Assembly: GCF_002223055.1 (NCBI RefSeq) | Contig: NZ_NKFL01000004.1 | Location: 868,001 to 932,000 of the forward strand | Direction of reading: 5' to 3' | DNA length: 64,000 nucleotides | Origin: Burkholderia sp. HI2500 | Lineage (GTDB): Bacteria > Pseudomonadota > Gammaproteobacteria > Burkholderiales > Burkholderiaceae | Shown here: positions 3,588-64,000 of the stretch, piece after piece | Numbering within the stretch: position 1 is the first letter of the stretch | Layout of the letters: each line of letters opens with the position of its first letter | Program-made: the position numbers and the translations under genes | The notes under the pieces: generated by a model | Seen by the model: only the letters and a program-made list of their open reading frames with translations | Told to the model about the DNA's origin: nothing | Database searches by the model: none

Positions 3588-4450
3588 GTGCATGGGCTGC
3601 CTGCCGCGTACCGGCGCCGTCCGAAGCCGAGCGCATCGCCGAACTGGCCGAGCGCAGCCTCGTGCTCGAGATCGAGACCTATCCGAAGCCGGGGCTTGTC
3701 AGTCACGTCGACACCGGCAGTCACACCGACATGGACGCCGCGACGTTCGCCCGCAGCGCCGCCGTGCTGCGGCCGTACTTCGCCGAATTGGCGGATGCGG
3801 GCGCGCGCGATGCGGACATGGCCGTACTGCGCAAGATCGGCCTGCGTGCCGAGCACGCGATGCTTGCCGCGACCGGTGGCGTCAACACGCATCGCGGCGC
3901 GATATTCGGGCTCGGGCTGCTGTGCGCGGCAGCCGGTCGGCGCGCGATGCCGGGGACGATGCCGGCCGGAATGACGCTCGGTGCGATCGTCTCCCGCCGC
4001 TGGGGTGCCGATATCCTCGGTGGCCCTCGCTTGCCCGACAGCCACGGCGAACGCGCGAGCCGCCGCTACGGCGTCGGCGGTGCACGTCGCGAGGCGGCCG
4101 ACGGTTTCACGACCGTCTATGCGGTCGGGCTGCCCGCGCTGCGTCGCGCGCAGCGTGACCTGCCGGGCGATCCGGAAGCCGCGCGCGTCGATGCATGCTT
4201 CGCGCTGATCGCCGCGCTCGACGATACGAACCTGCTGCACCGGGGCGGGCAGGCCGGCCTCGAGTTCGCGCGGGTAACCGCACGCGCGTTCGTGGCACGT
4301 GGCGGCGTGCGGGCGCGCGACTGGCGGCTGCGCGCGGCCGCCGCGCATCGGGCGTTCGTGGCACGGCGGCTGAGCCCGGGCGGCGCGGCCGACCTGCTCG
4401 CGATGAGCGTCTTCGTCGATGCGCTCGAAATTGACGAGGGCGCGCGATGA
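3584..4450 (+). CDS. mdcB: triphosphoribosyl-dephospho-CoA synthase
   Basis: 288-aa CitG/MdcB-family enzyme that makes the prosthetic-group precursor from ATP and dephospho-CoA; MdcG then loads it on MdcC. Family signatures are visible: EIETYPKPGLVSHVDTGSHTDMD near residue 30-50, the GVNTHRGAIFGLG segment near 100, and an RHGG-like LLHRGGQAGLEF near 215. ATG at 3584 overlaps the mdcG stop and the TGA overlaps the mdcH ATG. Co-location with mdcG shows that cofactor synthesis and attachment are both encoded here. Confidence 0.95.
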   Translation: MSAWAACRVPAPSEAERIAELAERSLVLEIETYPKPGLVSHVDTGSHTDMDAATFARSAAVLRPYFAELADAGARDADMAVLRKIGLRAEHAMLAATGGVNTHRGAIFGLGLLCAAAGRRAMPGTMPAGMTLGAIVSRRWGADILGGPRLPDSHGERASRRYGVGGARREAADGFTTVYAVGLPALRRAQRDLPGDPEAARVDACFALIAALDDTNLLHRGGQAGLEFARVTARAFVARGGVRARDWRLRAAAAHRAFVARRLSPGGAADLLAMSVFVDALEIDEGAR

Positions 4451-5379
4451 CGCTGGCCATCCTCTGTTCGGGGCAGGGCGCGCAGCGCGCCGACATGTTC
4501 GACCTGACCGGCGCCGCGCCGCAGGCCGGCGCGCTGTTCGCGCACGCCGGCCGGCTCCTCGGCGACGATCCGCGCGCGTGGGTCCGGCAGGCCGGGCCGG
4601 ACGCGCTGCGCGAGAACCGTGCCGCGCAGATTCTCTGCACGGTCCAGGCGCTCGCCGCCGCCGCGCTGCTCGACGCGGTGTGGCCGCGCCGGCGCTGCGT
4701 CGCCGGCTACAGCGTCGGCGAAGTCGTATCGTGGAGCGTCGCGGGAATGATCGAGCCGGGCGCCGCGCTCGACCTGGCCGACGCGCGTGCGCGCGCGATG
4801 GATGCCGCGAGCGGCGGCGACGAGCGGATGGTGTTCGTACGCGGCCTGACGCGTGCCCAACTCGCGCGGTTGTGCGACGGCCGCGACGCGGCGATCGCGA
4901 TCGCGAATCCCGGCGACGCGTTCGTGGTCGCGGGGCGGCAGGCCGATGTCGACGCGGTGGCCGACGATGCGTCGCGCGCCGGCGCGCTGCGCGTCGCGCC
5001 CGTCTGCGTGCGGATCGCGTCGCACACGCGTCGGCTCGCCGCGGCCGTGCCGGTGTTTCGCGCGTCGCTCGCCGCGACCGACGTACGGCGGCCGCTGCCC
5101 GGCACGCGGCTGTTTTCGGGGATCGATGGCGCATCGGTGCTGGACGTCGGCGCCGGCCTCGACAAGCTTGCGCGGCAGGTCGCGGAGCCGGTCGAGTGGG
5201 CGGCCTGTCTGGCGGCGTGCGTGGAGGCCGGTGCGACCGCGTTCCTCGAGCTCGGTCCTGGCCGCGCGCTGGCCGAGATGGCCGGTGGTGCCTATCCGGC
5301 GCTGCCGGCGCGCAGCCTCGCGGATTTCCGCTCCGTCGACGGCGTGGCGAGCTGGCTCTCACGCGTCGCGGCGGGCTGA
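4447..5379 (+). CDS. mdcH: malonate decarboxylase epsilon subunit (malonyl-CoA:ACP transacylase)
   Basis: 310-aa FabD-like acyltransferase that charges the acetyl or malonyl group onto MdcC to prime the complex. The N-terminal LCSGQGAQ motif and the nucleophile elbow GYSVGE (serine at about residue 89) are present, and the ELGPGRALAEM near the C-terminus fits the family. Start ATG 4447 overlaps the mdcB stop. It is the last gene of the operon in the window; no MadLM/MdcF-type transporter or LysR regulator follows, so these must lie upstream or elsewhere. Confidence 0.94.
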   Translation: MTLAILCSGQGAQRADMFDLTGAAPQAGALFAHAGRLLGDDPRAWVRQAGPDALRENRAAQILCTVQALAAAALLDAVWPRRRCVAGYSVGEVVSWSVAGMIEPGAALDLADARARAMDAASGGDERMVFVRGLTRAQLARLCDGRDAAIAIANPGDAFVVAGRQADVDAVADDASRAGALRVAPVCVRIASHTRRLAAAVPVFRASLAATDVRRPLPGTRLFSGIDGASVLDVGAGLDKLARQVAEPVEWAACLAACVEAGATAFLELGPGRALAEMAGGAYPALPARSLADFRSVDGVASWLSRVAAG

Positions 5380-51646: not shown

Positions 51647-51723
51647 CCGCCCTTAGCTCAGTTGGATAGAGCAACGGCCTTCTAAGCCGTAGGTCACACG
51701 TTCGAATCGTGTAGGGCGGGCCA
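51647..51723 (+). tRNA. tRNA-Arg (anticodon TCT), prophage integration target
   Basis: 77 nt with encoded CCA. Acceptor CCGCCCT/AGGGCGG, D-arm GCTCAGTTGGATAGAGC, anticodon stem ACGGC/GCCGT with loop CTTCTAA (TCT at 51681-51683), T-arm ACACG-TTCGAAT-CGTGT. The integrase gene ends 11 bp downstream, which marks this tRNA as the attachment site. Confidence 0.98.
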
Positions 51724-51733
51724 GCTAGAAGCC
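51690..51733. other. predicted prophage attachment region (left end)
   Basis: The 3' half of tRNA-Arg plus the 10-bp gap to the integrase stop. Tyrosine integrases that target tRNAs usually recombine in the T-arm/3' end, so the core should lie here and a copy of the tRNA 3' end should mark the right boundary outside the window. The exact core cannot be seen without the other end. Confidence 0.6.
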
Positions 51734-52828
51734 TTATGCAGCAAGGGATTGCGCCGCTTCCGACAGCGGCGTTTTTTCTTCCTGCTCGACCGACATTGAC
51801 AGAAACTTGACGTTGCCGGCGTGCTGAGCCAGATGGCTCGGCGCGAGGTGCGCGTACTTCTGCACCATGGCAACGGTCTCCCAGCCGCCCAGTTCCTTCA
51901 GCACCATCAACGGCGTCCCGCGCTGCACGTGCCAGCTCGCCCAGGTGTGCCGCAGATCATGCCAGTTGAAGTCGACCATCCCGGCCGCCTCGCATGCCCG
52001 CGCGAAGTCCCGCTTGTCGATCTGCCCGATCAGCTTGGGCGGCCCGTCGCCGCGTGTGTACCCACGCGTGAAAACGAGATCCGTCGCCGTCTGGGCCCGC
52101 CGCGCGAGGACGCTCATCGCGTCCTCGTTGAGCGGCACCGACCGCGCGCGCTTCGACTTCGCACCCTCGTGCGTGATCCACGCGTTGCACTGCGCGAGAT
52201 CAAGCTGCGAGACGCGCAGGCCGAACAGCTCAGACTCGCGCATCCCGGTCGCCACGGCCACGATCGCCGCGTCGCGCATCCATGGCAGGCGCAACGCGTT
52301 GATCATCGCCATGATTACCGCCGGCGGCTCCCATCTCACCCGCACGTCGGGTTCCTCGAACCGCTGGAGCTTCGGCACACGATCGATCCATTCCCACTCG
52401 ACGCACAGGTTCAGCATGCGCCGAATGGTGTTCATGTACCGATTTAGCGTGCCTGGTTCAAGCGGCCGCGCCGGCTTTCCCTTGATCAAGCGATGGGTCG
52501 GCAGCGCATTGAAGATGTCGTCGCCCGTGATGCTCTTGATCGATCGACCGACGAACTGCTCTCCCCAGTAGGTGATGTGCCGGAGCTTCCCAGCGTAGTC
52601 GCGTTGCCCCTCGCAGAGCTTCAGGAATCGCATGGCGGCCTCTTCGAAAATGCGGTCTGGCACTTCGCCGAGCTTGTCCTGCCGCCACAAATCAGCCTTC
52701 AGCCGGTCGTGGTATTCCTGCGCTGCCCGCTTGTCCTTTGTTTCAGCAGAGCGGCGAATTCTTTGGCCGCCTGGCGCGCTGACGTCGAGATACCAGATAC
52801 CGGATTTTTTGTCTTTGCGGATTGGCAT
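51734..52828 (-). CDS. int: phage tyrosine-type integrase
   Basis: 364-aa tyrosine recombinase. The N-terminal DNA-arm domain starts MPIRKDKKSGIWYLDVSAPG, a SAM-like core-binding domain spans about residues 60-150, and the catalytic domain has R197 (ATGMRESELFGLR), H290-x-x-R293 (HDLRHTWASW), W316 and nucleophile Y325 (YAHLA). It reads toward the tRNA and its 5' part overlaps the next upstream gene by 130 bp. Confidence 0.96.
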   Translation of the reverse strand: MPIRKDKKSGIWYLDVSAPGGQRIRRSAETKDKRAAQEYHDRLKADLWRQDKLGEVPDRIFEEAAMRFLKLCEGQRDYAGKLRHITYWGEQFVGRSIKSITGDDIFNALPTHRLIKGKPARPLEPGTLNRYMNTIRRMLNLCVEWEWIDRVPKLQRFEEPDVRVRWEPPAVIMAMINALRLPWMRDAAIVAVATGMRESELFGLRVSQLDLAQCNAWITHEGAKSKRARSVPLNEDAMSVLARRAQTATDLVFTRGYTRGDGPPKLIGQIDKRDFARACEAAGMVDFNWHDLRHTWASWHVQRGTPLMVLKELGGWETVAMVQKYAHLAPSHLAQHAGNVKFLSMSVEQEEKTPLSEAAQSLAA

Positions 52829-62438: not shown

Positions 62439-62872
62439 ACGACCTCCCGAATCCTCTCACCCCGGCGGATTGCGAACCCGGTGTGCAGCTGTCGTATGAT
62501 CGACTTTCACGTTGGGCAGCCGGTGGCCACCGGTGCGCCATTTTTGCCTGCCGGATGGCGCGCGCCCAACCCTTTAACCGGGCGGGCGAGAGCGACAGGT
62601 ATGGAACAAGAACATCACCAAGACGATGGAAATGTCGAGCTGGTCATCGAGCATCGGCCTTCGATTCAGGTGTTTCGCAATCGAGCCGGTTCAGTCACCG
62701 TCAGCGTGACCTCGATCAGCGAGAGTCTGGAGCATGTGACTTCGGACAGCGTCGCAATTCCTCTGGAATGCTGCGAGGAAGTCGGCAACGCATTGATCGC
62801 GCTCGCGAACAAGCGGTAGCGCTTTCCTGCCGCCCGTTCGGTGCGGCAGTCTTCGTGCGGATGGGGTGCTGA
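62435..62872 (+). pseudogene. frame beginning with a DUF1376-like N-terminus, probably a remnant
   Basis: The start MNDLPNPLTPADC matches the conserved N-terminus of DUF1376 phage proteins almost exactly, but after the Cys the sequence (EPGVQLSYDRLSRWAAG...) does not continue the family and turns into Arg/Ser-rich shadow-like sequence. A separate gene in another frame (62601-62819) overlaps it. I read this as a truncated leftover or a chimeric start. Confidence 0.4.
62601..62819 (+). CDS. small phage hypothetical protein
   Basis: 72-aa acidic protein MEQEHHQDDGNVELVIEHRP... with alternating beta-like pattern (VELVIEHRPSIQVFRNRAGSVTV). An alternative start at 62496 would add 35 residues. 54 bp separate it from the replication gene. 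Unknown function. Confidence 0.6.
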   Translation: MEQEHHQDDGNVELVIEHRPSIQVFRNRAGSVTVSVTSISESLEHVTSDSVAIPLECCEEVGNALIALANKR

Positions 62873-62873
62873 C

Positions 62874-64000
62874 ATGGCCCGCATCCGCACCATCAAGCCC
62901 GAATTCTGGACCTCCGAGCAGGTTCTCGAGCTGTCGCGCGACGCGCGGCTGCTCTTCATCGGCATGTGGAACTTCTGCGACGACGGCGGCAACCATCCGG
63001 CGAGCGCGAAAACATTGAAGGCCGAAGTGCTGCCCGCCGACGACGTTTCTGCCTCGGTCGTCATGCAGTGGGTTGACGAGCTCATCGAGCAGGGGCTGCT
63101 TTCCGAGTACGAGGCCGACGGAAAGGAGTTCTGGCACGTCACCGGATGGCATCACCAGCGCATCGACCAACCGACTCTGCGTCACCCGCGAGGTGACGCG
63201 GTGACGCAAGGTGACGCAGGTGACGCCGCGTCACCCAAAAGACTGGGTGGAAAACAACGCCAACTGCTCCTGAAGAAATTGCGCGACCGAGACGGTGACA
63301 CGTGTCACCAGTGTGGTGACGCGCAAGGTGACACGCTTCTTCGCGTCACCGACGAAGCGGCCGAAAACCCGCATGATGTAAGGAATTACCGCCTTATCTG
63401 CAAGGCTTGCAAGCGCAAAAACGCGTCAGGTGACGCAAAGGTGACGCAAGGTGACGCGAGGTACGTCGCTGGTGACTCGACTACGGAAGGTAGAGTAGGG
63501 GAAGGGAATGGAGTGGAGTCTATCTCTACTCAAGTAGAGCAGCAGCAAGAATCAACCGTAGAAGGCGCGTCACCTGTCGAAGGTGACGCGGTGACACGCG
63601 GTGACGCGGTGACGCATCCGGCGCCATCAGCGGCAGTGCATGTGCCTGACGGCTCTACCTCGGTTTCGAGAGCGATCGAAATCGCCGTCTACCTTCGGCA
63701 GCGAGGCGTGGCCGGAGCGAACAGCGTGAACCCGAACATCGCTGCATGGGGCGACGACGTCCGCGTGACGAACGAAATCCTCGACGCTGCGATCTCGAAG
63801 GCGCGTGTCAGCCTCAAGGGCAAACCGCTTGGTCCAAACTATCTCGCCACGATCATCCCCGATCTGCTGAATCCGGCGCCGGCTCAGCCGAAGCGCGAGG
63901 ACAACGCGTGGAAGCGCACGCCGGCCGGGATCGAGCGCAAGGCATCCGAACTCGGCATCCTCTGCCCGCCGGGCCGCGATCACGGCTGGTTGCTCGAGAA
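62874..64000 (+). CDS. phage replication initiator (partial, runs off the window)
   Basis: Open from ATG 62874 to the window end, 375 codons so far. The N-terminus MARIRTIKPEFWTSEQVLEL then LLFIGMWNFCDDGGNHP and WHVTGWHHQRIDQP is the replisome-organiser/O-like winged-helix type of many phages. The middle is Gly-Asp-Ala rich because the DNA carries many GGTGACGC iterons, and contains a CxxC-x28-CxxC zinc-type insert (C144, C147, C176, C179). The C-terminal part (from about 265) resembles primosomal or DnaT-like tails. Confidence 0.85.
   Translation, partial: MARIRTIKPEFWTSEQVLELSRDARLLFIGMWNFCDDGGNHPASAKTLKAEVLPADDVSASVVMQWVDELIEQGLLSEYEADGKEFWHVTGWHHQRIDQPTLRHPRGDAVTQGDAGDAASPKRLGGKQRQLLLKKLRDRDGDTCHQCGDAQGDTLLRVTDEAAENPHDVRNYRLICKACKRKNASGDAKVTQGDARYVAGDSTTEGRVGEGNGVESISTQVEQQQESTVEGASPVEGDAVTRGDAVTHPAPSAAVHVPDGSTSVSRAIEIAVYLRQRGVAGANSVNPNIAAWGDDVRVTNEILDAAISKARVSLKGKPLGPNYLATIIPDLLNPAPAQPKREDNAWKRTPAGIERKASELGILCPPGRDHGWLLE
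63179..63615 (+). repeat. iteron cluster, probable phage replication origin inside the initiator gene
   Basis: About 20 copies of the 8-mer GGTGAC(G/A/T)C. Direct copies start at 63192, 63200, 63210, 63219, 63294, 63315, 63327, 63429, 63440, 63450, 63471, 63582, 63590, 63600 and 63608; inverted copies at 63179, 63228, 63302, 63343 and 63567. Many are spaced 8-11 bp. They form four groups; an A/T- and purine-richer stretch at 63480-63560 could be the unwinding element. The arrangement mirrors the origin within lambda gene O. Confidence 0.8.

Follow-up and report, generated by a model that had tools for sequence, protein, structure and literature searches.

A GGTGAC repeat array inside the initiator gene of a Burkholderia prophage as a probable replication origin

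In P4, the repeats of ori and crr lie outside the α gene and are read by the α protein. In other replicons, the origin is located within the gene for its own initiator; according to the excerpted accounts, λ O (PMC7466680) and the Rep gene of pSK41 (PMC5703833) are precedents for this arrangement. Here we describe a 64,000-nucleotide stretch of DNA from Burkholderia sp. HI2500 (positions 868,001 to 932,000 of contig NZ_NKFL01000004.1; hereafter, the window), in which a prophage replication initiator gene carries about 20 GGTGAC sites. Judging from the sequence, it is very probable that the segment 63179–63615 is the replication origin of this prophage, contained in the gene of an initiator that would bind its own sites. 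Binding by the encoded protein, the firing of replication here, the site of opening, and the way in which the helicase arrives are inferred. An intragenic origin is of a known kind; new are the degenerate HNH domain that carries it, a repeat that differs from one lineage to another, and a purine tract with a period of five.

λ O contains its origin, as the gene described here probably does, and both genes follow a CII or CII-like gene within an early operon. The initial annotation, which proposed a likely phage origin at this locus, had noted that λ keeps its origin inside the initiator gene, and the λ iterons are indeed found right behind the part of O encoding the N-terminal domain (nucleotides ~349–433 of O, compared with 306–742 of the gene here). 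They number four, as had also been stated, fewer than at this locus. However, the λ iterons are 18 bp long and in one orientation, whereas the sites here are of 8 bp and in both; the λ tract is AT-rich, whereas a purine tract of 49% GC is present here; and P adjoins O in λ, whereas no P gene was identified next door here. By analogy, RepA_N plasmids of the pSK41 type appear to be at least as close a parallel, although the window protein has no match to PF06970 (RepA_N), and the excerpted account has four Rep boxes rather than about 20 sites and does not describe an HNH module. P4 shares 8-bp repeats in both orientations with short spacing and a common GGTGA, but the window protein matches neither a primase nor a helicase domain in Pfam. 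In the excerpted account of ICP1 Odn and PLE RepA (PMC8263062), an initiator-type DNA-binding domain is joined to a nuclease domain that cuts at iterons, and the RepA_N domain co-varies with the origin. In Odn, which attacks a satellite, the domain is of the GIY-YIG type, whereas the domain here is of the HNH type, is degenerate in its clade, and has the array in its own gene.

An exact scan of the window for GGTGACRC found 25 copies, compared with 7.05 expected, a number reached in 0 of 100 shuffles. Nineteen of these fall in 63179–63615 (14 on the + strand and 5 on the − strand), and the core GGTGAC occurs there 15 times on + and 5 times on −, in agreement with the earlier count of about 15 direct and 5 inverted copies in 437 bp. 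One more inverted GGTGAC, at 63138, brings the total in the initiator gene to 21. The spacing of 8–11 bp that had been reported also held, start to start, for many successive copies (e.g., 63192, 63200, 63210, and 63219), and one pair of copies forms a perfect 16-bp palindrome (63294–63309). In the rest of the window (437-bp segments starting outside 62600–63700), there is at most one GGTGACRC per 437 bp; the similar density elsewhere that the initial annotation had named as an argument against its proposal is thus absent from the window. The genome-wide scan that it had suggested was run for the tandem pair GGTGACRCNNGGTGACRC, which is found at three places in the 8.26-Mb genome, all inside the initiator gene.

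These repeats are a feature of the DNA rather than of the protein, since synonymous nulls are exceeded and since two codon frames and both strands are used. Synonymous recoding of the initiator gene gives a mean of 6.4 GGTGAC, and 0 of 200 recodings reach the observed 21, under a null drawn from the codon usage of the gene concerned, a usage that the repeats already skew towards more matches. The 21 copies are distributed over + frame 0 (11 copies), + frame 2 (4 copies), and the − strand (6 copies). The register that would generate a TGA stop is used by none of them, and the same holds for all 213 copies counted in 13 genes of the family.

The reading frame that holds the array had been described as that of a phage replication protein, and it matches PHROG 1408, replication initiation protein (E = 1.2e-34, residues 1–144). 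A search with NCBIfam profiles was negative at E values up to 0.1, and Pfam gave one weak zinc-finger match below the cut-off and nothing else at E up to 1; no O-type (λ O) family of Pfam is matched. An AlphaFold2 model (mean predicted local distance difference test score, 77) predicts a winged helix that is confident to about residue 97 (most of residues 11–97), a middle module, disordered linkers (residues 105–119 and 191–257), and a confident helical C-terminal domain. Structure comparison (VIA-align) gave rows that chiefly cover residues 7–96, and a Foldseek search with the model gave no match below E 0.001. The C-terminus is modular: a DnaT domain is found by Pfam in two relatives (P0026 and P0050), and at three loci (L008–L010), short open reading frames (ORFs) consist of this C-terminal end alone. 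A search of plasmid DNA found no related sequence, and one of phage DNA found only a C-terminal match, in two records. At the protein level, 394 phage records match, but none of the best 50 of these does so over more than 80% of the query. Literature searches, in which subscription journals were little covered, found no account of the repeats of this family. Taken together, the genome-unique tandem, the PHROG initiator gene, the position of the array behind the winged-helix part, and the arrays of relatives support the original proposal of a likely phage origin.

When the middle module is aligned with the HNH domains of relatives such as P0050, P0059, and P0074, which match PF01844, no gap falls between its cysteines. 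Four cysteines are kept in 54 of 55 aligned proteins, the exception (P0073) having no module, whereas the catalytic D-H, which corresponds to L156-R157 in the window protein, is present in only 9 of the 55. Thus, of the hallmarks of an HNH endonuclease, the window protein has the zinc cysteines and lacks the catalytic D-H. As read from these alignments, the array threads through a degenerate HNH domain that retains its four cysteines, an arrangement that is new here. One inverted iteron (63343–63350) overlaps the R157 codon by two bases and continues over V-T. An alternative placement, in which a catalytic V-D-H had become V-T-D with the iteron exactly there, was rejected, because the alignment sets D-H at L156-R157. 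Among 54 top homologs with the motif [GS]GKQR, 42 lack D-H and have at least four Gly-Asp (GD) units, 9 have D-H and fewer such units, and 3 (P0064, P0075, and P0095) have neither a full D-H nor four GD units.

A wider comparison classed 103 distinct initiator genes from 437 loci. All 13 genes with a degenerate HNH carry 10–21 GGTGAC, and in each of them, 0 of 200 recodings reach the count; the sole gene with an intact HNH has 4, which 2 of 200 recodings reach. All 89 genes classed as without HNH have only 0–3 GGTGAC and no array. In these 89, TCGACGA/TCGTCGA is in excess (269 observed vs 61.6 expected; at least three copies in 52 genes), with a period of 11 that stands above neighbouring periods. 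After removal of redundancy, the GGTGAC test was passed by 9 of 9 degenerate genes, one of which also passes the TCGACGA test, and by 0 of 74 no-HNH genes. A further 17 genes, unlike the earlier ones, show the TCGACGA excess (46 vs 15.3 expected; 5 of 17 pass) and no excess of GGTGAC (12 vs 9.0 expected). With GGTGAC in the degenerate-HNH genes and an excess of TCGACGA in those without HNH, the repeat thus differs from lineage to lineage, whereas the part of the gene that holds it is the same. These results suggest that the repeat sequence was swapped in the lineage carrying the degenerate HNH domain. A winged-helix tree of 127 rows, built on few columns and with many forks left open, requires a single change for the degenerate class (41 rows), as do 88% of bootstrap trees. 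Winged-helix relatives that are 67–74% identical to the query have no GGTGAC; therefore, either the winged helix would have changed its specificity or the zinc module would read the repeat. When 138 N-terminal sequences were compared by class, a few positions differed (22–23, 64, and 103), none of them decisively.

Other repeat types were observed in and around the family. In several no-HNH initiator genes (L039, L337, L011, and others), TCGACGA copies lie about 11 bp apart and are followed by CCCCGGA and then by five-base purine units, all of it coding. Two loci outside the gene pattern used for the 103 (L347 and L423) hold identical ORFs (3644–5023 in each) for a distant initiator with a D-H HNH-like domain, behind which lie short repeats of the CAACGA type; neither these two loci nor P27 (L442) has a GGTGAC array. 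In the wider family, the initiator gene of Mycobacterium phage Phrann (gp60; L438:1492-2376) contains CTCGCGA 12 times.

Within the array, between clusters III and IV, lies a purine-rich tract with a period of five. In the family, the units of such tracts behind the iterons are GGAAG, GGAGT, GAGTC, and similar, with a mean purine share of 0.84. The periodicity beats the synonymous null (≤1/100) in 7 of 9 degenerate genes, in the 1 intact gene, and in 10 of the 17 further genes; in two degenerate-HNH genes (L332 and L369), no tract of this period exceeds the null. Where a gene has both features (34 genes), the iterons are upstream of the tract 229 times and downstream 19 times. Thus, a period-5 purine tract, as recognized by sequence, is present behind the iterons in over half of the family genes, a feature that is new here. 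Ten named phages, of which nine have the winged helix and one has the C-terminal end only, were inspected with no null test. A period-5 tract was seen in Vibrio 1.131 and Arthrobacter Pitbull and a period-6 tract in SOVA965 and Shewanella QDWS; the other six had no such tract.

In the mechanism we propose, the initiator, with its winged helix, degenerate HNH zinc module, and helical C-terminal domain, would bind the ~20 GGTGAC sites as a many-copy assembly. This assembly would strain and open the neighbouring period-5 purine tract, the C-terminal domain would recruit the host helicase, and transcription across the tract may help to keep it open. In the excerpted accounts, TrfA (PMC4081077) and DnaD (PMC10201434) provide precedents, in that they recognize short motifs of opened origin DNA in a strand-specific manner, and one might guess, by analogy, that the tract of this prophage is read in the same way.

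Several observations weigh against an origin of this design. The tract is not AT-rich: the region 63478–63562 has 49% GC, compared with 66% for the window. The period-5 test is passed by only 45 of the 74 non-redundant no-HNH genes, the TCGACGA array test by just 33 of the 74, and several winged-helix relatives in named phages have neither array nor tract. In addition, the next ORF downstream has no PHROG match and is followed by a Holliday resolvase gene; among the ORFs scanned, no gene for a helicase or a P-like protein was recognized immediately downstream. In favour of an origin, named initiator relatives in several phages are followed by genes for a DnaB-like helicase or replication P.

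Given the number of GD units in the proteins of the degenerate-HNH clade, it could be postulated that selection acts on low-complexity protein repeats and that the DNA repeat is a by-product. Gly-Asp is encoded by 11 of the 21 copies, but the other 10 use another frame or the other strand, and none of the 200 synonymous recodings reaches the count; a protein-level explanation is thus ruled out as far as the null model can do so, and we regard it as extremely improbable. Another explanation starts from the size of the array. In plasmids, copy control can involve large sets of iterons, and the array might likewise serve incompatibility, handcuffing, or autoregulation without being the start site itself. 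With its ~20 sites, the array is larger than that of λ (4) and, by the excerpted account (PMC7466680), than that of Stx phages (6). However, the purine tract lies inside the array, and the window holds no second array of the 8-mer, so that this function, taken as the sole one, seems very unlikely.

The array might also be read mainly by another protein, such as the P4/D5-type primase-helicase of a second element, with the repeat being shared or borrowed. Two scans of viral contigs, each of at least 120 stretches, gave at least 73 loci with at least 5 clustered GGTGAC copies, of which 28 were chosen by rule (at least 7 copies, both strands, mixed spacing; two of the initiator's own family left out). 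In 15 of 20 neighbouring ORFs tested, which were hand-picked for length, one per locus, from loci of which some look like copies (L104, L126, and L132; L131 and L169), D5_N, VapE, DUF5906, PriCT, or Prim-Pol domains were found; the tested ORFs of L126, L131, L219, L074, and L248 had no primase-helicase domain. Among the 10 controls, each the longest ORF within 3 kb of a chance match, none had domains of the D5/VapE/Prim-Pol type, and one had Toprim and DnaB domains. Furthermore, in 14 of the 16 annotated type 1 repeats of P4, one strand reads GGTGAA, and the single D5_N ORF found in the Burkholderia genome (L524:2424-4877; G000:C4:2054923-2057376) has six GGTGAC (5 on + and 1 on −) within 251 bp behind it; the VapE profile has no match in this genome. 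However, this D5 element is more than 1.1 Mb away on the same contig, and in the initiator family, the repeat tracks the initiator's own domain layout, a co-variation that a self-read array predicts. A foreign reader is therefore quite unlikely, and binding by the encoded initiator remains the preferred reading. By eye, the D5_N ORF sits behind an integrase-like ORF and before a capsid-like one. Apparently non-coding GGTGAC arrays in both orientations were also seen in unrelated viral contigs (L065, L135, L137, and L155).

The features of the locus are collected in Table 1. On its upstream side, the initiator gene is preceded by genes for a CII-like protein (a weak match at E 0.00014), a YdaS/Cro-like protein, and a CI-like repressor, as well as by the integrase gene. 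A tRNA-Arg(tct) gene directly adjoins the integrase gene (window 51647–52828) and is a likely attachment site. An identical initiator gene is present in a 39,189-bp IMG/VR provirus, the first base of which maps to 51734, at the end of the integrase ORF.

Table 1. Positions of the initiator gene, its coding parts, and the repeat features in the window
Feature	Position	Strand	Remarks
Replication initiator gene	62874..64000, on to 64043 beyond window	+	389-aa ORF; PHROG 1408
Winged-helix coding part	62874..63188	+	residues 1–105; AlphaFold2 model and structure comparison
Iteron cluster I	63179..63235	both	4 direct, 2 inverted GGTGACGC; exact scan
Degenerate HNH coding part	63240..63428	+	residues 123–185; aligned with relatives whose HNH is intact and matches Pfam HNH
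Iteron cluster II	63294..63350	both	3 direct, 2 inverted; in degenerate HNH coding part; holds palindrome 63294–63309
Iteron cluster III	63429..63476	+	3 direct GGTGACGC plus one GGTGACTC
Purine-rich period-5 tract	63483..63527	+	candidate opening region; 0/100 synonymous recodings reach period-5 identity
Inverted repeat CTCTACT-CA-AGTAGAG	63524..63539		at tract end
Iteron cluster IV	63567..63615	both	4 direct, 1 inverted
Helical C-terminal domain coding part	63669..64000	+	from ~residue 266; confident model helices; candidate helicase-recruiting part

In this family, about 100 comparable genes allow initiator domains to be set against origin repeats gene by gene. One clade has another repeat than its relatives and a dead nuclease domain as the carrier of its sites; therefore, a change of origin code becomes directly testable. 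The period-5 tract, in turn, is a candidate opening element that codons do not explain. Given that the 6-mer core recurs next to P4/D5-type genes, one of which belongs to this very genome, it may be asked whether mobile elements share origins or compete for them. Convergence on GGTGAC would be the plain reading of this coincidence, and sharing or competition the bold one. In a further-reaching version, which we consider doubtful, GGTGAC would be a shared origin code: initiators with a winged helix and HNH would derive from an initiator fused to a nuclease that, like Odn, cut the origins of competitors, and one lineage would have lost the nuclease activity, filled the nuclease coding part with GGTGAC, and so taken on the P4/D5 repeat. 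If this were true, the prophage and the D5 element in the same cell would compete for, or cross-use, each other's origins.
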